A DNA stretch of 37,028 bases from Candidatus Aenigmatarchaeota archaeon (GTDB lineage: Archaea > Aenigmatarchaeota > Aenigmatarchaeia > JACPZZ01). The stretch covers positions 1 through 37,028 of the forward strand of contig JACPZZ010000028.1 of NCBI GenBank assembly GCA_016195275.1. Direction: 5' to 3'. The notes under the pieces were generated by a model. It worked only from the letters and a program-made list of their open reading frames with translations, did not search any database and had not been told where the DNA came from. The position numbers and the translations under genes were made by a program. Each line of letters begins with the position of its first letter. Position 1 is the stretch's first letter. This document shows, piece after piece, positions 695 to 35,553 of this stretch.

Positions 695-984
695 AAAAAA
701 AGAGGAAAAATTCGCGGTAGCGGACGTAAACTGAAAATTCAGTCGAAATCCGCTACACAATTCCGGTTGATCCTGCCGGAGGTTACTGCTATCCGAATCC
801 GGTTCAGACATGCGAGTCGTTGCCGCAAGGCAAGGCGAACTGCTCAGTAACACGTAGCCAACCTACCCTTAGATCAGGGATAAGCGCGCGAAAGTGCGGC
901 TAATACCTGATAGCCGCCTATACCTGGAATGGTTTGGCGATTAAAGCTTCGGCGTCTAAGGATGGGACTGCGGCCGATCAGGCT

Positions 985-1045
985 GTTGTGAGGGTAGAGG
1001 CGACTGACATACATCACAGATGTATGTCGATCTCTGCAATCCTCA
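985..1045 (+). other. Expanded 16S helix with perfect 10-bp hairpin
   Basis: Between GTTGTGAGG and CCTCACAA the usual short loop is replaced by about 45 nt containing GACATACATC (1006-1015), loop ACA, GATGTATGTC (1019-1028). I did not find a bulge-helix-bulge here, and the flanks pair as a normal helix, so I call it an expansion rather than an intron. Confidence 0.6.
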
Positions 1046-1259
1046 CAAACCTATAACCGGTAGGGGCCATGAAAGTGGGAGCCCCGAGATGGATTCTGAG
1101 ACATGAATCCAGGTCCTACGGGACGCAGCAGTTACGGAAACTCCACAATGCGCGCAAGCGTGATGGGGGGATTCGGAGTGTTGCAGTTTTTAACTGCAAC
1201 TTTTGCCGAGGTTAGTGCCCTCGGAGAATAAGTGGTGGGTAAGACGGGTGCCAGCCGCC

Positions 1260-1304
1260 ATGCTATCAGTTGGTTTTAAAGAAACTGGCTGATGGTCACG
1301 GTAT
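1260..1304 (+). other. 16S mini-intron in the 530 loop (45 nt)
   Basis: The universally conserved GTGCCAGCCGCC/GCGGTAATACC sequence is split. Exon GCCG (1254-1257) pairs with intron CGGT (1299-1302). The 3-nt bulges are CCA on the 5' side and ATG on the 3' side, and a roughly 13-bp inner stem with wobble pairs closes the insert. Cutting after the second bulge base on each side restores GCCAGCCGCCGCGGTAATACC exactly. No ORF. Confidence 0.88.
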
Positions 1305-1500
1305 GCGGTAATACCCGCGCCACGAGTGGTAATCGCGATTATTGGGCCTAAAGAGTTCGTAGCCGGTTTGGCAAGTCCCTAGTGAAATCTGGCAGTTGAC
1401 TGTCAGGCGTGCCGGGGATACTGCCGAACTTGGGACCGGGAAAGGGTACGGGTACTTTCGGGGTAGGGGTAAAATCCTGTAATCCTGAAAGGACCACCAG

Positions 1501-1537
1501 ATAGCGCAAGTTATGAAAATAATTTCCGCTCGGTGAA
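1501..1537 (+). other. 16S mini-intron (37 nt), 700 region
   Basis: Exon CACC (1495-1498) pairs with intron GGTG (1532-1535). Bulges AGA and AAT flank it, and the inner stem carries a GAAA loop. Splicing restores ACCACCAG-TGGCG. The downstream exon, up to the next intron at 1543, is only 5 nt long. Confidence 0.85.
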
Positions 1538-1542
1538 TGGCG

Positions 1543-1581
1543 AAACTTCTTTGGAAATTTTTTACCAAAAAAGTTCCACAG
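1543..1581 (+). other. 16S mini-intron (39 nt) after a 5-nt exon
   Basis: Exon TGG (1538-1540) pairs with intron CCA (1576-1578), with an A-C mismatch as a possible fourth pair. Bulges are CGA and AGA. The inner stem is AACTTCTTTGG against CCAAAAAAGTT with one mismatch. Splicing gives TGGCG-AAGGCG, the consensus. The 5-nt exon TGGCG (1538-1542) also takes part in the splice helix, so splicing order probably matters. Confidence 0.8.
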
Positions 1582-1635
1582 AAGGCGCGTACCTAGAACG
1601 GGTTCGACGGTGATGGACGAAAGCCAGGGGAGCAA

Positions 1636-1664
1636 ACTGATGGAAATTTTTCCGTCGGGCTAAA
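1636..1664 (+). other. 16S mini-intron (29 nt)
   Basis: Exon AGC pairs with intron GCT (1659-1661), and the inner stem runs from 1637 to 1658 with a G-U pair. Splicing gives GGGGAGCAAACGGGATTAG, matching the universal GGGGAGCAAACAGGATTAG at full length. It is the shortest well-supported insertion in the window, with only 12 nt of exon before the next intron at 1677. Confidence 0.75.
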
Positions 1665-1676
1665 ACGGGATTAGAT

Positions 1677-1711
1677 TTAAATCTAGTCTAAATTTACTGG
1701 GTTTACTAAAT
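1677..1711 (+). other. 16S mini-intron (35 nt) in the 790 loop
   Basis: Exon TTAG (1671-1674) pairs by four Watson-Crick pairs with intron CTAA (1706-1709). Bulges are ATT and ATA, and the inner stem starts TAAA/TTTA. Splicing restores GATTAGATACCCCAGTAG exactly, the near-universal 790 loop. Confidence 0.88.
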
Positions 1712-1812
1712 ACCCCAGTAGTCCTGGCTGTAAACGATGCAGACTTGGTGTTGCCAGTTCTTCGTGAACAGGCAGTGCCGTAGTGTAGATGTTAAGTCTG
1801 CCGCCTGGGGAG

Positions 1813-1879
1813 AGAAAGGCCGCATGGTTAAACTTATATTGTTATTAATAGCAATTAAGTTAAGCGACCTTTCCCCAAA
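1813..1879 (+). other. 16S mini-intron (67 nt), 890 region
   Basis: The exon G-run (1807-1810) pairs with CCCC (1873-1876), and AAAGG pairs with CCTTT inside. Splicing yields CCTGGGGAG-TACGGCCGCAAGG, the consensus. The exon to the next intron is 18 nt (1880-1897). Confidence 0.8.
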
Positions 1880-1897
1880 TACGGCCGCAAGGCTGAA

Positions 1898-2713
1898 TTA
1901 TTGGCGGTGTGATGGAACCTAAATTTCACGAACTTGCTAAAGAATTCGAGAAGGCTTGTAAAGAAGGCACAGTATCTCGACTGCTTCAAAAAACTCCGCA
2001 AGCTTTGTTACCTTTTAGACTTTCGCTGGGCTTGAGCCAGAAAAAACTGGCAAACAAACTCAAGGGACGACTGTCCGTTCCTATGATAGTCAAACATGAA
2101 AAAGGCCGTACAAAGTTTATAAGGAAAGGGACGACAGAAATTCTTGCAGGAATGCTTCCTAGCAAAGTATTACTCCGTGACATTATGAAAAATTACACAC
2201 GATTCATGGAGATGAAAAACGGAGGCTTTATGACTCCGGAAAATGCCAGGAAGTTACAAAGAGTTTGGCTGCACAAAACCACAAAAAAACAAAGGCAAGA
2301 GTGGGGGCGGTTGGGTGCGATAAAATCCAACAGCGGGGAGAAGCTTACAGAACAGGAAAACGAAATAAAAAAATTGTTGGACTCAACAAATGTTGAATAT
2401 ACCATACACGACCAGATAGAAACAAATTTGCTGAGTTTAAACATTGATTTTGTTCTGTACAAGCAAAATAAGCCGTGGTGTTTTATCGAAGTGACTAAAC
2501 GAAAGCACGACATGGCAATCCTCTGTCAAGCATATGCATATCGGAGCAGATTGCTAAAGGAAAGTTATCCTCGTGCTACAATTATGTTGGTTGCTGATAA
2601 CCTGTCTTTAATGCCCGCCAGAATTTTAGAAAAAGAGTTTGATTTTGTTTTTGACTCGAATTCTATGAATAAATTTAGCAAGTTTGTGGGTTCCTAAGCC
2701 GCTTATACAGCGT
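1898..2713 (+). other. 16S intron with nuclease ORF (816 nt), near E. coli position 908
   Basis: Exon GCTG (1892-1895) pairs with intron CAGC (2708-2711). Bulges are AAT and GTA. Splicing restores GGCTGAA-ACTTAAGGG. The site matches the known archaeal 16S intron site at about 908 (numbering from memory). The intron encodes a putative nuclease at 1912-2697. Confidence 0.88.
1912..2697 (+). CDS. Putative non-LAGLIDADG intron-encoded nuclease (HTH + PD-(D/E)XK-like)
   Basis: The ORF of about 261 aa fills the 16S intron near position 908, in the place where a homing endonuclease is expected. It has no LAGLIDADG motif. Residues about 34-70 resemble an Xre-type helix-turn-helix (GLSQKKLANKL, then a VKHEKG segment). 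Residues about 145-235 (TEQENEIKKLL, then NIDFVL, then FIEVTK about 15 residues on, then a basic helix ending KESYPRA) resemble the core of PD-(D/E)XK/Vsr-like nucleases, with D as the first acid and E..K as the second motif. The E-V-T-K spacing is not the textbook E-X-K, so the active site is inferred. ATG at 1912 follows GGTG; a GTG at 1909 is the alternative. Known archaeal rRNA intron endonucleases are LAGLIDADG, so this assignment needs a profile search. Confidence 0.6.
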   Translation: MEPKFHELAKEFEKACKEGTVSRLLQKTPQALLPFRLSLGLSQKKLANKLKGRLSVPMIVKHEKGRTKFIRKGTTEILAGMLPSKVLLRDIMKNYTRFMEMKNGGFMTPENARKLQRVWLHKTTKKQRQEWGRLGAIKSNSGEKLTEQENEIKKLLDSTNVEYTIHDQIETNLLSLNIDFVLYKQNKPWCFIEVTKRKHDMAILCQAYAYRSRLLKESYPRATIMLVADNLSLMPARILEKEFDFVFDSNSMNKFSKFVGS

Positions 2714-2724
2714 ACTTAAGGGAA

Positions 2725-2761
2725 AGAAGAAAATTTGAAAATAAATTTTTTCTTCCCCTAA
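2725..2761 (+). other. 16S mini-intron (37 nt), near E. coli position 919
   Basis: Exon AGGG (2719-2722) pairs with intron CCCT (2756-2759). Bulges are AAA and AAT, and the inner stem is GAAGA/TCTTC. Splicing gives ACTTAAGGGAA-TTGGCGGGG, the consensus at correct length. The exon between this and the 908-site intron is only 11 nt (2714-2724). Confidence 0.86.
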
Positions 2762-2959
2762 TTGGCGGGGGATCACACAAGGAGTGTAGGCTGCGGTTCA
2801 ATTGGATTCAACGCCGGAAAAGGAAACTCGTTCCTACGGATATCTTACGAGGAGCGACAGCAGAATGATGGTCAGTCTGACGGGCTTACCAGACAAGCTG
2901 AGAGGAGGTGCATGGCCATCGTCAGTTCGTACTGTGAAGCGTGCCGTTAAGTCGGTTAA

Positions 2960-3632
2960 ATCGCTAAGCCACATAAAAGCTTCTATCGGAACTCTGTAAC
3001 AGAAAAATAATAACCTTCCTTGCTGAATTTAGATTATGCAAGAGATCATAACCAAAGATTTTATAAAATCCAAACGGGCAAAAAGGCTTCCAGAAATCTT
3101 AAAACTGGACGAAGAATTTGCGTATTTGCTTGGGTTATGGAAAGCGGACAGATCTTCAACAGCAAAGGGAATTGTTGGTCTGATAAGCAAGGACGAAGAA
3201 CTTCTGAACGTTTTCAGGAAATTCTTTGAGCTTAAGCTAAAGATGAAAGCAAAGGAAAGAGTTGTTATCGGTTACGGGTTAACCAAAGAAGTTTACGTAT
3301 GTAGTATGCCGTTTAGAAGAATTCTGGAATTTGTTTCCCAAAATAGATTGGAAATGTTAAAGGATTCCAGAATTATCTTGTCTTACATCGCCGGATTAAT
3401 TGATGGTGATGGATCGACAGGAGGAATGGCGCATCTTGTGATTTTCTACGGTAAAAAAGAAAAAGAAGACGCCGAGAAAGATAGAAAATTAATTTTATCT
3501 TTAGGCTTCAATACAACGCTGAACGAAAAAGAAAATCATTTGAGATTGTACATTCTTAGGCCATCGAAATTACTGCAAAAGTTAACTGAATTCATAGTTT
3601 TGAAAAGGAAGCTTGTGACTTGGCGAGACCAT
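2960..3632 (+). other. 16S intron with LAGLIDADG ORF (673 nt), near E. coli position 1092
   Basis: Exon GGTT (2954-2957) pairs with GACC (3627-3630). Bulges are AAA and ATC. The inner stem TCGCTAAG pairs with the sequence at 3619-3626. Splicing restores GTTAAGTCGGTTAA-CGAACGAGACCC. The site corresponds to a known archaeal intron site near 1092 (from memory). Confidence 0.85.
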
Positions 3633-3704
3633 CGAACGAGACCCATATCCAATGTTGCTAATCTTGTCTGCGGACAAGATGCACTCATTGGAAACCGCCA
3701 CTGA
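3036..3704 (+). CDS. LAGLIDADG homing endonuclease of the second 16S ORF-intron
   Basis: 222 aa with two LAGLIDADG helices: a first, degenerate one (YLLGLWKADRS, about residues 30-40) and a canonical second one (IAGLIDGDGS, about 116-126). That is the two-motif monomeric type that cuts the intronless allele and drives intron homing. The first-motif acid seems to be the D of KAD. The reading frame does not stop at the 3' splice site (3632) but continues about 72 nt into 16S exon sequence before its stop, so the last two dozen residues are encoded by rRNA. ATG at 3036 lacks a clear Shine-Dalgarno. Confidence 0.85.
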   Translation: MQEIITKDFIKSKRAKRLPEILKLDEEFAYLLGLWKADRSSTAKGIVGLISKDEELLNVFRKFFELKLKMKAKERVVIGYGLTKEVYVCSMPFRRILEFVSQNRLEMLKDSRIILSYIAGLIDGDGSTGGMAHLVIFYGKKEKEDAEKDRKLILSLGFNTTLNEKENHLRLYILRPSKLLQKLTEFIVLKRKLVTWRDHRTRPISNVANLVCGQDALIGNRH

Positions 3705-3734
3705 TAAAGTGGAGGAAGGAGTGGGCGACGGTAG

Positions 3735-3762
3735 ACGATTATAACAGTATAATCGGCCGTAG
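3735..3762 (+). other. 16S mini-insertion (about 28 nt), 1200 region
   Basis: CGATTATA, loop ACAG, TATAATCG forms a perfect hairpin. Exon ACGG (3728-3731) pairs with CCGT (3757-3760), with TAG/AGT bulges and a GTAG repeat at both edges. The exact junction is uncertain by 1-2 nt: the product GACGGTA(G)TCTGTATGCCCC is slightly shorter than the usual archaeal consensus. Confidence 0.7.
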
Positions 3763-4086
3763 TCTGTATGCCCCGAATCTCCTCGGCAACACGCGGCCCT
3801 CAATGGTTGGGACAATGGGTTCCGACCGCGAAAGCGGAAGGCAATCCCCTAAATCCAATCTCAGTTCGGATCGAAGGCTGTAACTCGCCTTCGTGAAGCT
3901 GGAATTCCTAGTAAGCGAAAGTCACTATCTTTCGCTGAATGCGTCCCTGTTCCTTGCACACACCGCCCATCAAGCCATCCGAGTGGGGTTTTAGTGAGTT
4001 TCGTCCTTCGGGGCGAATCAAACTTGAACTCTATGAGGGGGGCTAACTTTGATAGTCACAAGCTGTCAGAGGCCTAAAGTTGTAAC

Positions 4087-4207
4087 AGATTGTCGGTAAG
4101 ACAGTTTTTGTTATTTGGCTTTTTGGGATTTTTCAGGTGATGATTACCTATTGGTATATTTTATCACTTGAATCTCAAAATTCATGTCTTGGCCGGCAAT
4201 CTACAAA
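4087..4207 (+). other. 16S intron without ORF (121 nt), near the 3' end of 16S
   Basis: Exon TGTA (4081-4084) pairs with TACA (4202-4205). Bulges are ACA and AAA. The 9-bp inner stem GATTGTCGG pairs with CCGGCAATC with one G-U. Splicing restores GTTGTAACAAGGTAGCCG exactly, in the helix-44 3' strand close to the decoding site. It holds no ORF of note and could be a former ORF-bearing intron or a larger ORF-less class. Confidence 0.87.
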
Positions 4208-4271
4208 AAGGTAGCCGTACGGGAACGTGCGGCTGGATCACCTCCTAATTTTGACCCCGCGAAGGTCGTTG

Positions 4272-4348: not shown

Positions 4349-4408
4349 AAAAACTGGCTGGGCATGAAATGATAATGAATATTTATCAATGATGCCCAGC
4401 CAGTTTTT
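4349..4408 (+). terminator. 17-bp perfect hairpin ending in TTTTT after 16S
   Basis: AAAAACTGGCTGGGCAT (4349-4365) pairs perfectly with ATGCCCAGCCAGTTTTT (4392-4408). Position and the terminal T5 suit transcript termination or end protection. It is a close structural relative of the leader hairpin at 569-626. Confidence 0.6.
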
Positions 4409-4520
4409 CTAACCTGCAAAATTTATTTATTTTTTTGGAAATAATCAAATAGCGCACAGATGGCTCAGTAAAATAATCGTCAATCAACGTATTCAATATG
4501 TGTATCCGTGCATACATAAT

Positions 4521-6860: not shown

Positions 6861-6985
6861 GGGCCGATAGATCAATTGGTAGATCGCGACGTTTGCATGA
6901 CCTTTTTGGGAAAAAGGTCAATCAAAAACTGACCAAAAAGTTCCGATGTACGTCGAGGCTGCGGGTTCGAGTCCCGTTCGGTCCA
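6861..6985 (+). tRNA. tRNA-Ala (anticodon UGC) with a 52-nt intron
   Basis: The acceptor stem GGGCCGA/TCGGTCC contains the G3-U70 pair that specifies alanine, and position 73 is A. The anticodon stem is CGACG/CGTCG, the loop is TTTGCA plus A38, and the T stem is GCGGG/CCCGT with TTCGAGT loop. The CCA tail is not encoded. The intron (about 6898-6949) follows position 37, the canonical site, and contains the perfect hairpin GACCTTTTT/AAAAAGGTC. A TATA-like TATTTAATTTTA lies about 30-40 nt upstream. Confidence 0.95.
6898..6949 (+). other. tRNA-Ala intron (37/38 site)
   Basis: It interrupts the anticodon loop after A37. The anticodon region TGCA can pair with TGTA at the intron's 3' end, as expected for recognition by the splicing endonuclease that would also process the rRNA mini-introns. 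Confidence 0.85.
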
Positions 6986-18179: not shown

Positions 18180-18394
18180 AATTTGTTTTGACTCGACGCC
18201 ATTTGGTGGATGACTCGGCTTCGGTTGTCGAAGAAGGACGTGGTAAGCTGCGATAAGCTTTGGGTAGGCGCACACAGCCTTTTATCCAAAGATCTCCGAA
18301 TAGGACATCCAATCAGAAAAATCTTCTGATATTCCGTAAGGAATGAGAACGGGGTGAGTTGAAGCATCTTCGTAGCCCCAGGAAAAGAAATCAA

Positions 18395-18431
18395 TAAAAC
18401 CAATTTTGATATCAAGTCAAAATTGGTTTTC
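18395..18431 (+). other. 23S hairpin insertion (37 nt), domain I
   Basis: It splits the conserved GAAATCAA/GAGATT block. AAAACCAATTTTGA (18396-18409), loop TATCAAG, TCAAAATTGGTTTT (18417-18430) is a perfect 14-bp stem. Unlike most others it lacks a clear 4-bp central exon-intron helix: flanks AATC/GATT leave opposed 3-nt bulges. It is either a non-canonical intron or a retained expansion. Confidence 0.65.
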
Positions 18432-19119
18432 GAGATTGCGTTAGTAACGGCGAGTAAAAGCGCAACAGTGCAAACCGAATCCCTTGCCGACAAGGTAAGG
18501 GAGATGTGGTGTTATAGGACTTGGGTTCTGCCCAGTTTTCCGAGCCAAAGCTTCTGGAAAGAGGCGCGACACAGGGTGATAGCCCCGTAGGTTAAGGAAA
18601 AAAGGTGGATACCAAGTATCCTGAGTACCTCCGCTTGGATATGTGGAGGGAATTTGGGTGGCATTTACATCCAACACTAAATACAAACGAAGTCCGATAG
18701 CAAAATAGTACGGTGACGGAAAGTTGAAAAGAACCCTTGAAAGGGAGTTAAAAGAACCTGAAACCAAATGGCCATAGGCGGACACTGCTCGAAAGGATCT
18801 TTCTTCCAAATGAAGAATTCGTGAGGATTTTGTAAGAGGAAGAATGCCGGAGTGGTGTCGTTCGTTTCGAAAAACGCGTCAGGGAGTTTATTTTTGTGGC
18901 GAGGCTAAGCCGTTAAGCGGCGGAGCCGTAGCGAAAGCGACAAGCTTGCAACTACTTCGTGTAGCTAGAAGCGCCGTGTGAAAGCGCGGGAAGTCACAGG
19001 AATAAGACCCGAATCTGGTCGATCTAGTCCTAGGTAGGCTGAAGCCCCGAGAAATCGGGGTGGAGGGCCGTTAGGGGTTCTGGTATTCAATCCGTTCCCG
19101 AGACCTGGGATTAGGGGTG

Positions 19120-19152
19120 AAACTGGTTTAAGTCAAAAGGAACCTCGGTTGC
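19120..19152 (+). other. 23S small insertion with unclear boundaries
   Basis: About 33 extra bases lie between AGGGGTG and GAAAGAC. GGTT/AACC and AAC/GTT segments can pair. I could not draw a canonical splice motif, so expansion versus intron is open. Confidence 0.5.
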
Positions 19153-19159
19153 GAAAGAC

Positions 19160-19990
19160 AGATATACAGATTTACACCAACCCGTTGGTAGTGTGATGAA
19201 AATTAAAGAGGAAGTTTTAGCCTCGGTAATTGGGATGCTATTGACAGATGGTGGCATATCTGTAATTAGCAAAAATAAGTTAGAAGTCTTCCTTACAAGC
19301 AACTCGGAAGCTTTAAGGGAGTCTTTCAAGCAAAATTTGCAAATACTGTTCCCAAACCTGAATCTAAAATTTCAGACGGTGCATGGCAGAACGGTTAAAA
19401 AGATAAGGGTATGTAGTCGCGAAGTGGGTGTAGAATTTCTTAAATTTTCTACCACCTTTCGCACAAGGCCGTGCAACACTTTTCCGGTATGCCCAAAATT
19501 TAGGGGTGTGCCGGAAAGGGCTGTGCCACATGAGTGTAATTCATTAAACGGATTTCCACCGGCTACATTACCTAGCTTTATAATTAACGGGACACCTGCT
19601 GTAAAACGAGTCGCATTAAGAAGTGCAATGACTTGTGATGGTGGGATTGAATTTCACAAAATTGTGCATAATGGCAAGGAATATCTTCAAAGAAGATTGC
19701 TTTTAAGATGTCATAACCCGAATTTATTGGGTCAATGGGAGCGGGTTTTTGTAGCTTGTGGTTTTAAGATTACCAAAACGATAAATGAAATAAGAATAAC
19801 CGGCAAAAAAAACAATTTGAAAAGTTCAGAAACGAAATAAAATTCATCGATGATGTTCTTGTAGAAAGAAGCAAGTTTTGGAAAGGTATAAGCAAAAATG
19901 AAGTTTTAGATATCGCAATCGAATCCTTTGATTTAACTAGCACCAAAAGCCAATCGAGATCAGGGATATCTTTTAAGCGTCGAAATGGTA
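19160..19990 (+). other. 23S intron with frameshifted LAGLIDADG ORF (boundaries approximate)
   Basis: It lies between exon GAAAGAC and a short exon ATTTGAACCAT, corresponding to the conserved GAAAGACTAATCGAACCAT segment of domain II. Exact splice sites were not resolved. Confidence 0.7.
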
Positions 19991-20076
19991 AATTTGAACC
20001 ATGTTGCCTGATTGGAGAGTTCCATTTCCAAACTATCATCGAAAGAGTGGTTGGAATACCTTGCTGGAATTATTAA
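19196..20076 (+). pseudogene. LAGLIDADG homing endonuclease, frameshifted
   Basis: The first frame (19196-19840) carries both motifs, ASVIGMLLTDGGIS near the N-terminus and VALRSAMTCDGGIEF at about residue 145, as in the 291-aa protein at 21537. It stops early after an A8 run (19805-19812). One extra A would continue the protein into the next frame (QFEKFRNEIKFIDDVLVERS..., through 20076), which looks like a genuine C-terminal region. The gene is either recently inactivated, affected by a homopolymer sequencing error, or expressed by slippage. The continued frame would run over the small exon at about 19990-20002. Confidence 0.7.
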
Positions 20077-20540
20077 AAATTTATTCGGAATTGATTGCAA
20101 AATCGGTCCGCATAGGGATGGTTTCAGGCTAAGGGTGTATTCAAAACTCTTGAATGTTTTCCTTGAAAAAGTATTTGATATGCCACATGATCAAGAAAAT
20201 TGGAAAACCCCAAACTTGATCGAAGAAAATGAAATTTCTTGGAAGTGGTACATGTCGGGGTTCTTTGATGCGGAAGGTTATTTCACAAAACCGGAAACCT
20301 TCCTAAAAACTGGTAAAGTGAAATTGACATTTTCACAGAACAACAAAGAATCCTTGGAATTTATAAAAATGGCATTAAACTATTTTGGGATAAAATCAGG
20401 TAAAATTTATTTGGAAAATGGACGAAAATGCCATACTCTTCAAATTCAGGCGATTTTTGACATAAAACGATTTTCAGAAGAAATTAATTTAGTCAGAAAA
20501 AAGAAAAACATGGCTCAACTTTTAGACGTCTTTAAAGACC
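20003..20540 (+). other. 23S intron with truncated LAGLIDADG ORF (boundaries approximate)
   Basis: It begins about 12 nt after the previous intron ends and stops before TATAGCTGGTTCCCTC. The junctions were not resolved to the base. Confidence 0.65.
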
Positions 20541-20560
20541 CTATAGCTGGTTCCCTCTGA
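20012..20560 (+). CDS. LAGLIDADG endonuclease lacking its first motif
   Basis: 182 aa from a TTG start. The second motif YMSGFFDAEGYF is canonical at about residues 80-91, followed by the typical KLTFSQNNKESLEFIKMAL...FGIKSGKIY half. The N-terminal half begins inside what would be the first repeat (EYLAGIIKNLFGIDCKIG), and the first LAGLIDADG helix is not present. Likely a degraded enzyme or maturase remnant. The stop lies in exon sequence after the 3' splice site. Confidence 0.7.
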   Translation: MESSISKLSSKEWLEYLAGIIKNLFGIDCKIGPHRDGFRLRVYSKLLNVFLEKVFDMPHDQENWKTPNLIEENEISWKWYMSGFFDAEGYFTKPETFLKTGKVKLTFSQNNKESLEFIKMALNYFGIKSGKIYLENGRKCHTLQIQAIFDIKRFSEEINLVRKKKNMAQLLDVFKDPIAGSL

Positions 20561-20837
20561 AATGAGCCTCAGCTCAGCCTCGTCGGAGATAGATTTCAGA
20601 GTAAGGCACTGATTGGGGGTCCAAGTTCCGAAAGGAACAGATTTCCTGTCAAACCAAGAAACTGGAATCGTCGTAGAAGACGGGAGTGAGGGTGCCGGGG
20701 TAAGCTCGGCATCCGAGACCGGAACAACGGAGACCATGGTTAAGGTCCCTAAATCTTGGCTAAGTGATAAAGGATGTCTCAATTCTTAAACAGCGGGGAG
20801 GTTGGCTTAGAAGCAGCCATCCTTCAAACAGTGCGTA

Positions 20838-20878
20838 AGTTGGGCACCCGAATATGATTTCGGATGTTCGGCCGCAAA
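20838..20878 (+). other. 23S mini-intron (41 nt) in the GTPase-associated centre
   Basis: Exon TGCG (20832-20835) pairs with intron CGCA (20873-20876). Bulges are TAA and AAA, and a long inner stem is rich in G-U pairs. Splicing gives GTGCGTAATAGCTGACC, the universal GCGTAATAGCTCAC sequence of the L11-binding region (near 1093 in E. coli numbering, from memory). Confidence 0.87.
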
Positions 20879-21469
20879 ATAGCTGACCCGTCTAGAATTG
20901 GGGCGCCCAAAATGGAAGGGACTAAGTCAAGTACCGATACCTTGGATTTTGGAATTTTGTTCCAAAGTGGTAAGAGGGCGTCCCCTTAGGGCAGAAGCTT
21001 CTCCGTGAGGAGAAGTGGACCTTTGGGGAGCGAGAATCCTGACGAAAGTAACAGCAAAGTCGAGTGTGAATCTCGACCGTCTAAAGTACAAGAGTTTCCT
21101 GGCAACGTTCGTCAACCAGGAGTTAGTCGATCCTAAGGTTAGCCCTAACTGGGTAAAATCGAATTGGGAAGCAGGTTAATATTCCTGCACCATCTGGATA
21201 CGTGCCGCAAGGCGTGATTGTATTCTGACGCCTCGGGATAGGTGGACAGCGACCATCGTCGCTGCCAAGCATTGAAATTTGGGGAGTCTCGTAATGAGGA
21301 GAACCGAATGAACGTGTGAGTGGCGCTCGCAAGGGCGTTCCGCCAAATCCTGGGGTCCATGAAAAGGAAGCAATAAGAATTCCAGATGATCGTATCAAGA
21401 ACCGATACAGGTGTACACGCTGAGAAGGCGAAGACGTGTTGAGTGAACTCTACCCAGGGAAATCGGCAA

Positions 21470-22388
21470 ATGGGTTAAGGACCAATCGTACAGTAGGCTC
21501 CGTAAGATTTATACGCATAAAAAATAAATTCTTATAGTGCTTGCTGTACGAAACTTAATTTATCTTGTAGCCGCGGTATTGGCGGATGGTTCTATCGATA
21601 CCGAAAGGTACACCGTAACGTTTACGGAAGATAAGGGGGTTGTCGAAAAAATAACTAAAACCGCAAGCAAAATAGGAGATTTGCAACTTGAATGGAAATT
21701 AGAAAAACAGAAAAATTCGACGAGGGCGCGAACTTATTCTAAAAAACTCTGTGATTCGATGCTTAGTTTGATACCGAGTTTTAGAACACGACCTTTGGGA
21801 AAACACCCAACAAAAATTCCTATAGAACAAAGAAATATGTATCTGGAGTATCCAAAGATAAAATTACCGGAGACGATAAAAACCGGTGCGAATAAAATCG
21901 ATTTCTTGAGGGTATTCGCAACGTGTGACGGGGGTCCAGAATTTTCAGTTTATTCGAGGGGAAATGGGGCACTACAATTGCACGTCGGAGTGAAAATAGG
22001 GTGCGATAACCCTTATCTCAGAAAAGAGATCAAAGATATGATGACCGGCTTACGAGTAAATTTTGTGGAAAGAAATGACGGGATAATAATCAAACAAAAT
22101 TCAGAAATAATAAAGTTCGCAAAAACCGTAGGATTTCTTTCGGAATCAACGATAAGGAGAGGAAAATTATTAAAGGGTTTTACAAAGAACGACGCGTTGA
22201 CATTTATGGTAATGTGCGCAGAACTTTCAAAACAATCACCGTGGATAAATAAAAATTTTTCGGATAAAAAACGATTAGAAAATTTTTTGGTAGAATGTAT
22301 TGAATTAATTTCGTCAAAACATTTTGATGATTTGCAAAATCTTATAGAAAAGGAATTAAAAATTAGGTTAATCCTTAACCCAGTCGAA
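21470..22388 (+). other. 23S intron with LAGLIDADG ORF (919 nt), domain III/IV
   Basis: The perfect terminal stem GGGTTAAGGA (21472-21481)/TCCTTAACCC (22372-22381) is extended by T-A. Exon CGGC pairs with GTCG next to it, and bulges are AAA and AAT. Splicing gives ATCGGCAA-TTTAGCTCCGTAAC, the consensus at correct length. Confidence 0.87.
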
Positions 22389-22412
22389 TTTAGCTCCGTA
22401 ACTTCGGAATAA
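21537..22412 (+). CDS. LAGLIDADG homing endonuclease
   Basis: 291 aa, apparently intact, two motifs: LVAAVLADGSID (about residues 10-21) and FLRVFATCDGGPEF (about 123-136), with acids D18 and D131. It is closest in design to the frameshifted gene at 19196 (shared TFRTRP/FRTRPLGKHP-type linker and TCDGG motif), so the two introns probably share ancestry. The C-terminus (VEFSSVTSE) reads through the 3' splice site into 23S exon sequence. GTG start at 21537. Confidence 0.87.
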   Translation: MLAVRNLIYLVAAVLADGSIDTERYTVTFTEDKGVVEKITKTASKIGDLQLEWKLEKQKNSTRARTYSKKLCDSMLSLIPSFRTRPLGKHPTKIPIEQRNMYLEYPKIKLPETIKTGANKIDFLRVFATCDGGPEFSVYSRGNGALQLHVGVKIGCDNPYLRKEIKDMMTGLRVNFVERNDGIIIKQNSEIIKFAKTVGFLSESTIRRGKLLKGFTKNDALTFMVMCAELSKQSPWINKNFSDKKRLENFLVECIELISSKHFDDLQNLIEKELKIRLILNPVEFSSVTSE

Positions 22413-22586
22413 GGAGTGCCAGCTCAGTGATGAGCTGGTCGCAGTAACAAGGCGAGAGGGACTGTTTAATAAAAACGCTGGGATCTGCTTAGCCAGTAAT
22501 GGTTTGTACAGATCTTAAAGCCTGCCCAGTGGCGGTGTGTCAAGCTTGGTTACAACCGGGTGAAGCCCCGCTATACGGCGGCGGTA

Positions 22587-22620
22587 ATTTAGCAAGTTAC
22601 AAAAATTTGCTAAACCGTTT
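22587..22620 (+). other. 23S mini-intron 1 of 3 in the helix 69-71 region (34 nt)
   Basis: Exon GCGG (22581-22584) pairs with intron CCGT (22615-22618). Bulges are TAA and TTA, and the inner stem is TTTAGCAA/TTGCTAAA. Splicing gives GGCGGTAACTCTGACCGTC, matching the near-universal GGCGGTAACTATAACCGTC. Confidence 0.9.
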
Positions 22621-22635
22621 ACTCTGACCGTCTTA

Positions 22636-22667
22636 ACTCAATCAACGTTAAGTTGATTGGGAGGTCT
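22636..22667 (+). other. 23S mini-intron 2 of 3 (32 nt)
   Basis: Outer exon helix ACC/GGT, central helix GTCT/AGGT (two wobbles), bulges TAA and CTA, inner 9-bp stem CTCAATCAA/TTGATTGGG. Splicing yields CCGTCTTAAGGTAGCG, whereas simple alignment without this fold left the consensus one A short. This is independent support for splicing. The exon upstream is 15 nt. Confidence 0.9.
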
Positions 22668-22678
22668 AGGTAGCGTAA

Positions 22679-22713
22679 ATATCAATTCCATGAATCAGGA
22701 ATTGAAAACGTAA
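22679..22713 (+). other. 23S mini-intron 3 of 3 (35 nt)
   Basis: Exon GCGT (22673-22676) pairs with ACGT (22708-22711). Bulges are AAA and AAT, and the inner stem includes TCAATTCC/GGAATTGA. Splicing gives GGTAGCGTAATCCCTTGTCG, near the universal GGTAGCGAAATTCCTTGTCG. The exon before it is 11 nt. Confidence 0.84.
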
Positions 22714-22845
22714 TCCCTTGTCGATTAAATGTCGACCCGCATGAAAGGCTCAACTACTTTCGCGCTGTCCCGGGTAGAGACTCAGTGAAATTGTCATTCA
22801 AGTGAATAGACTTGAGACCAACAATGGGAAGAGAAGACCCCGTAG

Positions 22846-23570
22846 ATGGGGCGAGTGAAATACACTTAATAAACAAGTCTGCAGTATAGTATATCGGGTA
22901 CATGTGACAAGTTTTGCTATAACCAAACTAGTTGCGTATGATATAGGGATACACATCGGAGATGGAAATATGTATTCCAAAAACCGTACGCACCGAATAA
23001 CATACTCTGGCAACCTGACTACAGAACGCGATTTTTACAGGCGTGTTTTGTATAAAATAGTAAAAAGGATTTACAAAACTAATCCGATATACTTGGAGAG
23101 ACCCGTAGATAACACCGTGCTTCTAATGATAAACTCGAAAGATTTGGTGAATTTCAAGCAAAGAGTCTTTAATTTGCCGTGTGGCAAAAAAGACACCATA
23201 AGGATCCCGAGATCAATATTGAGAAACAGAAATCTTTTGAGATGGTGCATGAGAGGTATTGGTGACACAGATTTCTGCCTGTCCTTTAAGAGGAACAGAA
23301 AAGGTCTTTATACAGAACCTAGACTGGAATTGTATACCAAATCAGAATTCTTGTTAAAAGATGTGACAAGAGTCTTGAAAAGGTTTGATTTCAAATTTTC
23401 TGTTGAAAAACGTACAAAAAAATATCATGGGTTCATGATAAGAATGTACGGAAGAAAAAATTTGAACAGGTGGATAAACAATTTTGGATTCTCCAACTTC
23501 CATATATTACAGAAGATAAAGTCTTGGCAGAGACTTGGTTATTTTCCAAAAGTAGCTCGCTCCAACGGTT
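22846..23570 (+). other. 23S intron with LAGLIDADG ORF (725 nt), domain V
   Basis: Exon CCGT (22840-22843) pairs with ACGG (23565-23568). Bulges are AGA and TTA, and the inner stem GGGGCGAG pairs with CTCGCTCC. Splicing restores GACCCCGTAGAGCTTTACTG exactly. Confidence 0.9.
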
Positions 23571-23572
23571 AG
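22904..23572 (+). CDS. LAGLIDADG homing endonuclease
   Basis: 222 aa, two motifs: VAYDIGIHIGDGNM (about residues 10-23) and LLRWCMRGIGDTDFCLSF (about 113-130), with acidic residues in GDG and GDTD. The second helix is followed by the usual LYTKSEFLLKDVTRVLKRFDFKFSV half. GTG start. Apparently intact, stop at the end of the intron. Expected to cleave intronless 23S at the GACCCCGT site. Confidence 0.85.
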   Translation: MTSFAITKLVAYDIGIHIGDGNMYSKNRTHRITYSGNLTTERDFYRRVLYKIVKRIYKTNPIYLERPVDNTVLLMINSKDLVNFKQRVFNLPCGKKDTIRIPRSILRNRNLLRWCMRGIGDTDFCLSFKRNRKGLYTEPRLELYTKSEFLLKDVTRVLKRFDFKFSVEKRTKKYHGFMIRMYGRKNLNRWINNFGFSNFHILQKIKSWQRLGYFPKVARSNG

Positions 23573-23808
23573 CTTTACTGCAGTCTGGTGCTGCGGTACG
23601 ATTGGGATTTCATAGTGTAGTCTGGAGCTGTTCGAAGGCGCGACTCTCGGGTCGCGCTTAGGCGATAATGTAACACAGACATCTTTTGATTGTACTGCTT
23701 ATTGGATCTCAAAGATCCATGACACCGCTAGATGGGCAGTTTGACTGGGGCGGTACGTTCTTGACAGGAGATCAAGAGTGCTCTATGGTTAGCTCAGTCC
23801 GGTCAGAA

Positions 23809-23846
23809 ATTAGAACAACTTTTTCAGAAAGTTGTCTAAACTGAAC
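23809..23846 (+). other. 23S mini-intron (38 nt), domain V
   Basis: Exon TCAG (23803-23806) pairs with intron CTGA (23841-23844). Bulges are AAA and ACA, and the inner stem TTAG/CTAA plus ACAACTTT/AAAGTTGT closes it. Splicing restores GGTCAGAAATCGGACGTAG. Confidence 0.87.
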
Positions 23847-23997
23847 ATCGGACGTAGAGTGTAAAAGCAAAAGCTAGCCTGACTGGATTCTGAAAAGCAA
23901 GGATTCCAGCCGCGAAAGCGTGATTTAGCGATCCCCAATGCCTCCTGAATGGGGGCTTGGTGTATCAGAAAAGCTACCTCGGGGATAGTTCAAATGA

Positions 23998-24668
23998 ATT
24001 ATATCGGAACTTCACATTCAAAGGTCTTATCAACTATTCACACCCAGAATAAAATATGAATCGTAACAGAGCGTTTTTGCTTGCAGCTACGATAGGCGAC
24101 GGCTGTTTAACAAGTAGGCCGTCAATCGGAGATTATACTATCGAATTCGATCAGGATAATCTACGATGGCTGCAGGTAATTGCAGAAAAATTTGGGAAGG
24201 AATTTGGAAAGAAGCCTAAAATCTTCAAAACCAAGAGAGGATTTTTCCGGCTTCGACTCCATTCGAAAAGAATTTTCGAAGAAATGAAACAAATGAAAAA
24301 TAATTTCCAAAAAATACGCAACGAGAAGAAAGGGATAAAATCGGGTTTTCTGCAAGGTTTGTACGATTCCGAAGGTTCTGTGCAAAATCGAAGGTTAACC
24401 TTGTCAAACAAGGATGAGGAACTTTTGATTTTGTGCAAAGAACTTTTGACTGAATTCGGAATCAAAACAGGAAAGATATGGAAAATGAAATGGGGTGTGA
24501 AAGTGCTTCCTATATACGGGAAGAATATGATGATAAGATTTCGTAACAATGTGAATTTCCTGCATCCTGTGAAAAAGGAGAAGTTAGAATGTTTATTTGG
24601 ACCTCCAAAATGGGTTCGTGGCGGGCGAGAGTTCCTTTCGCCTGCGCTCTTCTTCAAAGGATAGGATC
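23998..24668 (+). other. 23S intron with LAGLIDADG ORF at the peptidyl-transferase region
   Basis: It interrupts CTCGGGGATA just before the invariant ACA. The 5' side is clear. The 3' side is most simply before ACAATC at 24669, but I could not draw a standard splice motif, and the intron may extend to about 24790. Confidence 0.7.
24056..24664 (+). CDS. LAGLIDADG homing endonuclease
   Basis: 202 aa, two motifs: FLLAATIGDGCLTS (about residues 7-20) and FLQGLYDSEGSV (about 98-109), the latter followed by NRRLTLSNKDEELLILCKELLTEFGIKTGKIW. This is the same layout as the ORFs at 20012 and 24957, suggesting one subfamily spread to several 23S sites. ATG 24056. Intact. Confidence 0.87.
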   Translation: MNRNRAFLLAATIGDGCLTSRPSIGDYTIEFDQDNLRWLQVIAEKFGKEFGKKPKIFKTKRGFFRLRLHSKRIFEEMKQMKNNFQKIRNEKKGIKSGFLQGLYDSEGSVQNRRLTLSNKDEELLILCKELLTEFGIKTGKIWKMKWGVKVLPIYGKNMMIRFRNNVNFLHPVKKEKLECLFGPPKWVRGGREFLSPALFFKG

Positions 24669-24671
24669 ACA

Positions 24672-24791
24672 ATCTGGTCTAAACCTTAATAGATTAGAAA
24701 GATGACGCAACTCGATGCACATGACAAAGGTTTGCAATGCAAACCGTGCATAGGAAACCAAGTTTCCTATGAAATGCGCGTCGGTTCGCAT
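24672..24791 (+). other. Structured insertion in 23S helix 89 region
   Basis: About 120 bases separate ACA (24669-24671) from GGAGTGCTGGGCGAG, the H89 strand and loop. It contains GGTTTGC-AAT-GCAAACC and CATAGGAAAC-CAA-GTTTCCTATG, both repeated downstream of 23S. It may be a second intron or the 3' part of the preceding one. Confidence 0.6.
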
Positions 24792-24937
24792 AAGAATGGA
24801 GTGCTGGGCGAGAATAAATCGACCCCGCGCGTTGAGGCGTCGCTGTCGGCTACCCCCCTCCTGGCTGTGCAGCAGCAGCCAAGGGTACAGGTGTTCACTG
24901 GTCAAAGGGGGACTTTAGCTGGGTTTAGAACGTCGTG

Positions 24938-25687
24938 ATCTTATAGTGGAACGGTCTTGAAGCGAATTGGTCTATCGGAACGTCGCTTTCGGAAAGATAA
25001 TATCATTCGCAAGCAAATCTTAGCCGTGGATGAAATATTTGCGTATATGATTGGCGCTATGCGTGATGGTACATTCACGAGAAACAAGAAACATTACGTG
25101 TATCGCATCAGGATATACCAAAAAAATAAAGAATGGTTGGAAAAGTTATCAGGTATGATAACTGAAAAATTTGGGAAAAAACCCAAATTAGCTTGCGACG
25201 ATAGAAGCGGTTTATGGTGTCTTATAGTAAATTCAAAAAGAATTTACGAAAGCATGGTAGAAATGTCCGAATATCCGGGCAACCAAGCATGCTGGAGCGC
25301 GCCAAAATCGATAGTGTCGGCGTCAAAGGAAATCAAGATAAATTATATAAAAGGTTTTTTGACGCAGAAGGCGGGATTTCCAAGATAGACAAAAAAGATT
25401 TTTTGCCAAAGGACATCAGAATATACATTTGCCAGGCAAACAAGCAAAGTCTTGATGAACTGAAGAACATGATTCAAGAATTTGGAATAAGGACAGGCGA
25501 TGTATGCGGGCCGTATTTTAAGAAAGGTTATGAAAAACCCACTTACGGACTGATGATTCATGGAATAAAAAACGTGAACAGTTTTTCGAAAATAATAGGT
25601 TCGCTACATCCAGAAAAATTGAAAAGATTTGAAATTATACAGGGGCTGAAAACCCCTTCTGGAAGATAGTTCTACATAAGACGGCAT
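24938..25687 (+). other. 23S intron with LAGLIDADG ORF (750 nt)
   Basis: Exon GTCG (24932-24935) pairs with CGGC (25682-25685). Bulges are TGA and ATA, and the inner stem TCTTAT pairs with ATAAGA. Splicing restores AACGTCGTGAGACAGTTCGG exactly. Confidence 0.89.
24957..25669 (+). pseudogene. LAGLIDADG homing endonuclease, frameshifted in the second motif
   Basis: First frame 24957-25388 includes motif 1 (FAYMIGAMRDGTF, about residues 28-40). The second frame, visible to 25669, supplies DAEGGISKIDKKDF and the C-terminal half with FGIRTGDVCGPYF. One extra T in the T6 run at 25355-25360 would join them as YIKGFFDAEGGIS, a perfect second motif. So the break sits inside the catalytic motif: real inactivation, or a homopolymer sequencing error. 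Confidence 0.75.
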
Positions 25688-25751
25688 AGACAGTTCGGTC
25701 TTTATCTATTGTTGGTGTCAATCGCCTGAGAGGAAGGCAGAATTAGTACGA

Positions 25752-25800
25752 AATGTGTTTACGTCAAACCATTTTTTACTTTTGGCGTAAATGCACGTAA
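25752..25800 (+). other. 23S mini-intron in the sarcin-ricin loop (49 nt)
   Basis: It splits AGTACGA/GAGGAAC, the most conserved rRNA sequence known. Exon TACG (25747-25750) pairs perfectly with CGTA (25796-25799). The 5' bulge is AAA. The inner stem has about 15 bp (TTTACGTCAAA against TTTGGCGTAAA plus extension). Removal with junction AGTACGA-GAGG restores the consensus; the strict second-base cut would give AGTACGAA-AGG, so the register is uncertain by 1 nt. Confidence 0.85.
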
Positions 25801-25889
25801 GAGGAACATCCTGCCGCAGCCACTAGTTTACCAGTTGTCTGAAGAGGCATCGCTGGGCAGCCACGCTGTATGCAGTTAAGGACTGAAAG

Positions 25890-26160
25890 CATAAGAGAAA
25901 TAGTTTCAGTTTTCCTGATGGTCAGACCGTCGAGTTAGCATCTGCTTTACTTTGAAAACGGTTGTTACATTCGGGTAATATGCCGACTAAGAGATTAGTT
26001 GCGCTAGGCAGAAATTATTCTCTGCTTAACTAAGTCCGAAACTGTCCTCAAATAATAGGCGATTATTTCCAAACTGGCGCAGACGCAAACCGAAGCATAC
26101 CGTATACTGTATCGGTATGCTTCAGTCGGATTTTGCGTCGGTGCGGATAAAAAGGTCTCG
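25890..26160 (+). other. Expanded or interrupted 3' end of 23S
   Basis: Between GGACTGAAAGCAT and GGTCTCGTAGACG lie about 270 nt, more than expected. GCAT repeats at 25889 and about 25939 may mark a small intron. The long stem at 26077-26138 (GACGCAAA...GAAGCATACC pairing with GGTATGCTTC...TTTTGCGTC) reuses the GAAGCATACC stem of the leader hairpin at 17763. Boundaries not resolved. Confidence 0.5.
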
Positions 26161-26244
26161 TAGACGACGAGATTAATGGAATCGGGATGTAAGCACCAAG
26201 GCAACGAGGTGTTCAGTCCGCGATCCCCAAAAGCCTGAATTTCA

Positions 26245-26375
26245 AGACAAATTGCTATTACTATTGCAATTCACAGGAAACATCGGTTTCCTGTGCACGG
26301 TGCAAGTTTACCGCTGTAAACTGCAGCCGGTTTTGCCGAAGGCAAAACCGGCTTTGCAATGCAAACCGTTGTGTT
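26245..26375 (+). repeat. Tandem run of hairpins after 23S
   Basis: Four consecutive perfect or near-perfect hairpins: AATTGC/GCAATT (26250-26271), CACAGGAAAC/GTTTCCTGTG (26272-26295, family A), GTTTAC/GTAAAC (26306-26321), and AGCCGGTTTTGCC-GAA-GGCAAAACCGGCT (26325-26353). They are followed by TTTGCAATGCAAACCGT, which is identical to 24731-24747. Confidence 0.7.
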
Positions 26376-35152: not shown

Positions 35153-35180
35153 GCAATTTATGTGAACTATCAACTTGAAA
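35153..35180 (-). mobile_element. IS605-type right-end hairpin
   Basis: On the minus strand AACTATTTCAA-G-TTGATAGTT is followed by TTCAC-like sequence, a typical end for IS200/IS605-related elements, immediately after the tnpB remnant. Confidence 0.45.
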
Positions 35181-35553
35181 TAGTTGAGCTTCCTAATTCA
35201 CCGACGGCACTTGCTTTTTTAGAAAGTAGAGTACCATCTCCAAATGGGGTTGATTCGGATCGTTCCGACCCTATCCCTCTTAAAAGGGTTACCATTGCGG
35301 AGTTATAATCCCTGTCAACAAACAAACCACATTCACATTTATAGACCCTGTCCAAAAACCTGTCTACTATTTTTTCCCTTGTGGTTTCGCAACAAATAGT
35401 TGCGAAATATTTTCCAGAAGGCATCTTCTTAACGGTTATCGTTTTAGGCTTTCCTTCGGTAGGCCTGTGGTACTTCATAGAAATATCGCCAACAGTCGGC
35501 AAACGTAATTTATTTCCGATCCATTTTCCTTTCCCTGAGAGTACATCGATTTA
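35170..35553 (-). pseudogene. tnpB: tnpB remnant (IS200/IS605-type), internally deleted
   Basis: Translation shows TnpB middle-region sequence (GKWIGNKLRLPTVGDISMKYHRP...KTITVKKMPSGKYFATICCE) joined directly to the C-terminal part (VDRF...YKCECGLFVDRDYNSAMVTLLRGIGSERSESTPFGDG). The CECG half of the zinc ribbon and the final DRDYNSA RuvC Asp remain, but the first RuvC motifs, the first CxxC and the N-terminal domain are gone. It cannot be active. It records a past insertion upstream of acs. Confidence 0.85.

Follow-up and report, generated by a model that had tools for sequence, protein, structure and literature searches.

Introns of the archaeal bulge-helix-bulge (BHB) type have been described in the 16S rRNA genes of Thermoproteales, Desulfurococcales and Caldiarchaeum, confined to 13 sites and to thermophilic lineages (Jay & Inskeep 2015, PMC4496867), and one group I intron has been reported from a large-subunit (LSU) rRNA gene of Aenigmarchaeota (Nawrocki et al. 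2018, PMC6125680). Here, we analysed a 37,028-nt stretch of DNA from a Candidatus Aenigmatarchaeota archaeon (contig JACPZZ010000028.1; hereafter, the window), in which the only 16S rRNA gene of the genome is interrupted by 14 insertions. We consider these insertions to be archaeal BHB introns, with a probability of roughly 0.93.

Structure of the 16S rRNA gene

Coordinates are those of the window, and intron sites are given in E. coli numbering (Ec; K-12 rrsB for 16S). The window was aligned, with an intron state, to a profile that combined E. coli K-12 rrsB with eight 16S genes of the same class that have few introns, and insertions of at least 20 nt were counted. The archaeal small-subunit (SSU) model, the check proposed in the first-pass annotation for placing the insertions, aligns to positions 760-4093 with large unaligned inserts (Rfam cmscan, RF01959, 936 bits). 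Profile alignment moves the end of the gene to 4246, the end already annotated, so that the gene spans 760-4246.

The 14 insertions total 2020 nt and comprise 12 short ones (22-121 nt) and two that carry open reading frames (ORFs; 816 and 673 nt). They separate 15 exons of 240, 220, 196, 5, 54, 12, 101, 18, 11, 58, 118, 102, 284, 9 and 39 nt. The earlier description of a gene dominated by ORF-less mini-introns thus holds, but its count of about eleven was too low, plausibly because the exons between introns 722 and 727 and between 1492 and 1501 are only 5 and 9 nt long, and its size range of 28-67 nt for most of them was too narrow. Cutting at the BHB junctions rebuilds the consensus, as had been claimed: the spliced product of 1467 nt keeps 532 of the 552 positions that are identical in the eight references and E. 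coli, and the motifs at 530, 787, 907 and 1492 appear only in the spliced sequence.

For the BHB score, exon positions -6 to -3 were paired with intron positions -6 to -3, with 3-nt bulges on both strands and the cut after the second base, and the inner and outer helices were added. The 16S insertions were scored at product-preserving junctions, and the null was obtained by swapping introns among the same sites in 5000 trials. The features of the gene are as follows (fractions give paired positions of the central helix).

760-4246, +, 16S rRNA gene, 15 exons, spliced 1467 nt (RF01959, profile alignment, spliced product)
1000-1039, +, intron Ec 265, 40 nt, without counterpart in the same-genus genome G004; 4/4
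1260-1304, +, intron Ec 526 (530 loop), 45 nt, without counterpart in G004, which reads GCCGCC^GCGGTAAT; 4/4
1501-1537, +, intron Ec 722, 37 nt; CACC/GGTG, 4/4
1538-1542, +, micro-exon TGGCG, 5 nt, required to restore CCACCAG^TGGCG^AAGGCG
1543-1581, +, intron Ec 727, 39 nt; 3/4 before and 4/4 after removal of intron 722
1636-1664, +, intron Ec 781, 29 nt; 3/4, long inner helix
1677-1711, +, intron Ec 793, 35 nt; 4/4
1813-1879, +, intron Ec 890, 67 nt; 3/4
1898-2713, +, intron Ec 908, 816 nt, ORF-bearing; 4/4, score 14
2725-2761, +, intron Ec 919, 37 nt, preceded by an 11-nt exon (2714-2724); score 15
2820-2841, +, intron Ec 977, 22 nt; 3/4
2960-3632, +, intron Ec 1102, 673 nt, ORF-bearing; 4/4, score 14
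3735-3761, +, intron Ec 1197, 27 nt; score 14
4046-4077, +, intron Ec 1492 (decoding site), 32 nt; 4/4
4087-4207, +, intron Ec 1501, 121 nt, preceded by a 9-nt exon (4078-4086); score 13

Bulge-helix-bulge pairing

The 14 introns score 9-15 each and 168 in sum, a value reached in none of the 5000 swaps (112 +/- 6); random inserts attain a score of 12 or more in 0.5% of trials. The full 3-4-3 structure with a complete 4-bp central helix is present in ten of the 14, against a swap mean of 0.84 and a maximum of 4. One further intron (727) becomes full once its neighbour is removed, and three (781, 890 and 977) stop at three of the four pairs. The geometry itself was validated on a positive control, the intron at the classical position 37/38 of the tRNA-Ala(TGC) gene of the window, which scores 12.

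We infer from these sequences that, in the precursor 16S rRNA, four bases of the upstream exon would pair with four bases near the 3' end of the intron, flanked by two 3-nt bulges; EndA, a one-unit alpha-type tRNA-splicing endonuclease, would cut within both bulges, and the RtcB ligase would join the exons. The two long introns would represent ORF-bearing mobile forms and the twelve short ones, most likely, remnants that lost the ORF and kept the splicing core.

The 23S rRNA gene gives the same picture: the central helix is complete in all 14 of its introns, compared with a swap mean of 0.16, bringing the total for the rRNA introns of the window to 24 of 28.

18184-26250, +, 23S rRNA gene, 14 BHB introns, 3' end approximate
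19122-19946, +, 23S intron Ec 782, full BHB
19968-20544, +, 23S intron Ec 802, full BHB
20838-20878, +, 23S intron Ec 1095, full BHB
21470-22388, +, 23S intron Ec 1677, full BHB
22587-22620, +, 23S intron Ec 1912, full BHB
22636-22667, +, 23S intron Ec 1927, full BHB
22679-22713, +, 23S intron Ec 1938, full BHB
22846-23570, +, 23S intron Ec 2070, full BHB
23809-23846, +, 23S intron Ec 2310, full BHB
23987-24608, +, 23S intron Ec 2449, full BHB
24637-24817, +, 23S intron Ec 2477, full BHB
24938-25687, +, 23S intron Ec 2597, full BHB
25753-25801, +, 23S intron Ec 2661, full BHB
25893-26029, +, 23S intron Ec 2754, full BHB
6861-6985, +, tRNA-Ala(TGC), 52-nt intron at 37/38 (6898-6949); cmscan, BHB score 12

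Four additional 23S inserts, at Ec 228, 538, 1436 and 2791, have low BHB scores and resemble helix extensions; they were left out of the count. About half of the tRNA genes detected in this genome (L032-L052) are interrupted, some of them, by ARAGORN, at unusual positions. Two similar hairpin elements, at 565-630 and 4350-4412, flank the 16S precursor; they contain GGGCATGAA and end in a T-run.

Micro-exon and predicted splicing order

A single 75-nt insertion at 726 initially appeared to have no BHB; it resolves into introns 722 and 727 around the 5-nt exon TGGCG. The central helix of intron 727 has three pairs as long as intron 722 is present and four after its removal. Completion of the 727 BHB upon departure of intron 722 predicts ordered splicing, 722 followed by 727, and hence a partial interdependence of the adjacent introns. 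To judge from the sequence, a 5-nt exon whose downstream BHB would be completed by removal of the upstream intron is a new feature of this gene.

Introns in related genomes

The partial 16S gene of G004, a genome of the same genus, covers 575 bases and is identical to the exons of the window at 554 of them (96%), and it lacks introns 265 and 526 exactly to the base, which is direct evidence of intron gain or loss within one genus. In the four same-genus genomes G001-G004, the standard SSU search finds no 16S gene in any, yet a DNA search recovers the partial gene of G004; rRNA genes interrupted by introns or contig breaks may escape such finders. In E. coli NZ_CP091836.1 and NZ_CP061914.1, we also encountered an atypical 16S copy of ~1520 nt, which is the best E. 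coli match to an archaeal 16S query.

The phylum-wide survey, with the same 20-nt threshold, covered 50 16S genes, that of the window and those of 49 relatives; all genomes listed in a phylum-wide search of 156 belong to the same class. Among 231 insertions, 212 have a BHB score of at least 10, and these are distributed over 45 of the 50 genes and 61 positions, some of which possibly represent one site split by 1-2 bases of junction uncertainty (e.g. 382/383, 977/978 and 1091/1092). The central helix is complete in 82% of the insertions, compared with 7.9% after swapping introns between sites. Most of the 212 introns are short (161 of at most 130 nt), and 33 exceed 400 nt. None of the 16S intron sites is peculiar to the window, as each recurs in one or more other genomes of the phylum, and a comparable intron load is found in G026 (L077), the 16S gene of which extends over 5872 nt. 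The intron density, which the first-pass annotation had called exceptional, is indeed higher than in published archaeal 16S genes, but it is a property of the phylum rather than of this gene alone.

These data bear on two other explanations. Under the first, the insertions are never removed and form expansion segments of the mature rRNA, or they are cut out but the exons stay unligated, leaving a 16S rRNA that works in fragments. An extension would be tolerable at insertion 265, which is in the loop of a variable hairpin; the insertions at the 1492 decoding site, in the 530 loop and in the 900 region, by contrast, break universally conserved motifs, the BHB of ligated introns recurs at both junctions in the 82% just cited, and a ribosome could hardly retain unligated fragments as short as 5, 9, 11 and 12 nt. 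We therefore regard retention or fragmentation as very unlikely. The second explanation, an assembly artefact or a non-functional 16S copy, draws on the fact that the genome is a metagenome bin and that the 16S genes of many relatives are broken or missing in the assemblies. Against it stand dozens of independent genomes in which these sites and this BHB pattern recur, the matching exons of G004 with two introns cleanly missing, and the preserved invariant positions in what is the single 16S gene of the genome, leaving this explanation hardly any credence.

Self-splicing introns, of group I or another type, among the insertions would have a precedent, since group I introns occur at SSU position 1498 and in the LSU genes of Micrarchaeota and Aenigmarchaeota (PMC6125680), and one relative in our survey (L027) carries such an intron: its long insertion at Ec 1498 is recognized by Rfam as group I (70 bits). 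The BHB score of that insertion is only 4, which provides an internal check that the score discriminates. In the window, Rfam covariance models yielded no group I or II match at the gathering score or at E values up to 1; twelve of the introns do not have the length that such ribozymes require, and all show BHB pairing. The chance that self-splicing introns are among the 14 is accordingly close to nil, and BHB introns remain the favoured identification.

Intron-encoded proteins and origin of mini-introns

The two long 16S introns encode different proteins.

1909-2697, +, ORF in intron 908, 262 aa, N-terminal helical helix-turn-helix (HTH)-like domain and putative PD-(D/E)XK-type nuclease domain (relatives in 16S introns; fold search)
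3036-3704, +, LAGLIDADG homing endonuclease ORF in intron 1102, 222 aa (PF14528, E 8e-10)

The stop codon of the LAGLIDADG ORF lies 72 nt into the next 16S exon. This ORF and that at 24056-24664 both overrun the 3' splice site and stop within an rRNA exon.

The 908 ORF produced no Pfam match, and no LAGLIDADG domain was found in it. A genome search identified four relatives, all inside 16S introns of other genomes (Ec 946, 1197, 1363 and 1363). The five family members share an N-terminal HTH-like helical region and invariant residues D180, I193 and E194. A single-sequence structural model was not usable (pLDDT 40), and the alignment-based model reached a moderate pLDDT of 70; its fold matches are mostly PD-(D/E)XK nucleases (Can2, PspGI and EndoMS), with low whole-chain scores. 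The modelled fold suggests a putative non-LAGLIDADG homing endonuclease of HTH + PD-(D/E)XK architecture. We know of no report of this type of homing endonuclease in archaeal BHB introns.

Across the phylum, nearly all long introns contain a sense-strand ORF; of 33 such ORFs, 24 have a LAGLIDADG match. About a dozen 16S sites in the 50 genes hold both mini-introns and introns of more than 400 nt, with sizes ranging from 33 to 847 nt at 1363, 34 to 816 at 908, 35 to 746 at 793, 26 to 664 at 919, 22 to 599 at 977 and 27 to 832 at 1197. This sharing of sites suggests that mini-introns are probably remnants; the simplest reading of the size series is that they derive from long introns which lost the endonuclease gene and kept the splicing core. 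Alternatively, mini-introns could have formed de novo, or small RNAs could have given rise to them through reverse splicing. Many sampled sites hold mini-introns only (e.g. 265, 526 and 781), and sequences at one site are often unrelated, as such an origin would have it, but the dozen sites with both size classes argue against it, and we consider it rather unlikely. The question concerns only where mini-introns came from.

Some relatives carry mid-length introns with conserved internal motifs at Ec 1363 (165-220 nt), 1499 (103-172 nt) and 1501 (104-121 nt), for instance, GAGATGGGCAATATGA at 1499 and GCAGCACTATGATG at 1363; these motifs are possibly embedded small RNAs. Elsewhere in the window, a short ORF (35170-35502, minus strand) has a weak match to a Cas12f1-like/TnpB TNB domain.

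Splicing endonuclease and ligase

The first-pass annotation had linked the introns to the ARMAN group and its three-unit endonuclease of relaxed specificity. The lineage is Aenigmatarchaeota rather than ARMAN, and the relatives with 85-88% identical EndA are metagenome-assembled genomes named Candidatus Aenigmatarchaeota. The genome encodes one EndA of 214 aa, a single unit that matches the M. jannaschii enzyme (1a79, E 7e-33) from end to end, including the catalytic region, and aligns only partly with the EndA of ARMAN-2 (4fz2, 395 aa), contrary to the expectation of a three-unit epsilon2 enzyme of ~390 aa. A single EndA, in a frame of 220-244 aa, is present in each of the five genomes of the genus. 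Nor is relaxed specificity required, given the complete central helix of 24 of the 28 rRNA introns. The EndA types for which efficient processing of relaxed motifs has been reported do not include the one-unit alpha4 type (PMC6379350), which fits the mostly canonical BHBs of the window. A second subunit may be missing from the bin. No link between EndA type and intron number was apparent by eye.

The rtcB gene (G000:C11:32550-33908, L113) is itself interrupted, with two insertions relative to intact copies of the same genus. The first, of 21 nt, follows MPDGH (MPDGH^GYGFP), introduces an in-frame stop and is shared with G003; the second, of 33 nt, lies at GFDI^NCG and has a BHB score of 13. 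Neither is present in G004 and G002 of the same genus. In other genera, insertions of 31 and 28 nt (L148 and L150; score 16) are found near GFDI^NCG and insertions of ~26-35 nt at MPDGH (L147, L148, L159 and L161), where the frame breaks in several more. Overall, rtcB is interrupted by insertions of ~21-36 nt at L113, L144, L147, L148, L150, L153, L159 and L161. From their sequences, we take them as BHB mini-introns in a protein-coding gene, at two conserved motifs, a situation that is new here. In G013, G022, G038, G058, G059, G065 and G089, the RtcB match is split and lies within an open frame of 960-1010 aa, which suggests inteins near RtcB model position 48-50 in many relatives.

Several observations weigh against our interpretation. 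The central helix has three of four pairs in introns 781, 890 and 977 and, with intron 722 still present, in 727; because a preference for the canonical motif is expected of a one-unit alpha4-type EndA (PMC6379350), the enzyme may cut these introns poorly, or the junctions assigned to them may be 1-2 bases off. The only rtcB in the assembly (L113) lacks ~30 codons (25-54), with a frame change relative to G004, which may reflect a damaged gene, a second copy missing from the bin or an assembly error. Finally, the bin is ~83% complete. We find it fairly likely that, with BHB mini-introns so common in Aenigmatarchaeota, EndA/RtcB splicing is needed to make both the ribosomes and the ligase that takes part in splicing. 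Under this reading, splicing would act at dozens of sites in rRNA and in a set order around the 5-nt exon, and the rtcB mRNA would be interrupted at two conserved motifs, so that RtcB would be needed to make RtcB, a built-in feedback loop.

Comparison with known systems

If the introns are correctly identified, rRNA introns in archaea, hitherto a peculiarity of thermophilic Thermoproteota, are also common in a DPANN phylum whose genomes measure ~1 Mb, and about 60 sites are now known in 16S rRNA instead of 13. The same-site series from ORF-bearing introns to 22-nt mini-introns provides material for testing intron decay, whereas the rtcB introns raise the question of autoregulation. Such introns disrupt 'universal' primer sites and defeat rRNA finders, so that surveys probably record too few of these archaea. 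Beyond the works cited, our partial literature search found no further reports of rRNA BHB introns for Aenigmatarchaeota, Micrarchaeota or DPANN, and earlier reports may exist elsewhere.

The kind of intron is known; its scale and several features are new, namely, the 5-nt exon, the putative HTH + PD-(D/E)XK homing endonuclease in a BHB intron and the mini-introns in rtcB. With the Thermoproteales-type 16S introns (PMC4496867), those of the window share the BHB core, location at highly conserved sites, LAGLIDADG ORFs in long introns and hairpin introns of less than 50 nt. Sites common to that set and the phylum include 374, 722, 781, 901, 908, 919, 977/978, 1092/1093 and 1205; most of the 13 published sites recur in Aenigmatarchaeota, and the majority of the 61 positions are additional. 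Unlike in that set, there are up to 14 introns per gene, mostly mini-introns, with exons down to 5 nt and a second ORF type. Nawrocki et al. 2018 (PMC6125680) likewise describe rRNA genes of uncultured archaea that are rich in introns and in which group I introns occur next to BHB introns; the group I intron of L027 occupies a site reported there. That paper catalogues group I introns and, in its accessible part, gives no BHB mini-intron or site map, and the window is without a group I match. The 908 ORF family resembles PD-(D/E)XK nucleases (Can2, EndoMS/NucS and restriction enzymes) in its predicted C-terminal fold and D...IE motif but differs in the fusion to an N-terminal HTH-like domain and in being encoded inside BHB introns. 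Similarly, the rtcB introns parallel the BHB intron of archaeal cbf5 pre-mRNA (PMC2738675), an EndA-type intron in a protein-coding gene, but unlike the latter, they affect the splicing ligase itself, measure ~21-36 nt and fall within two conserved motifs.

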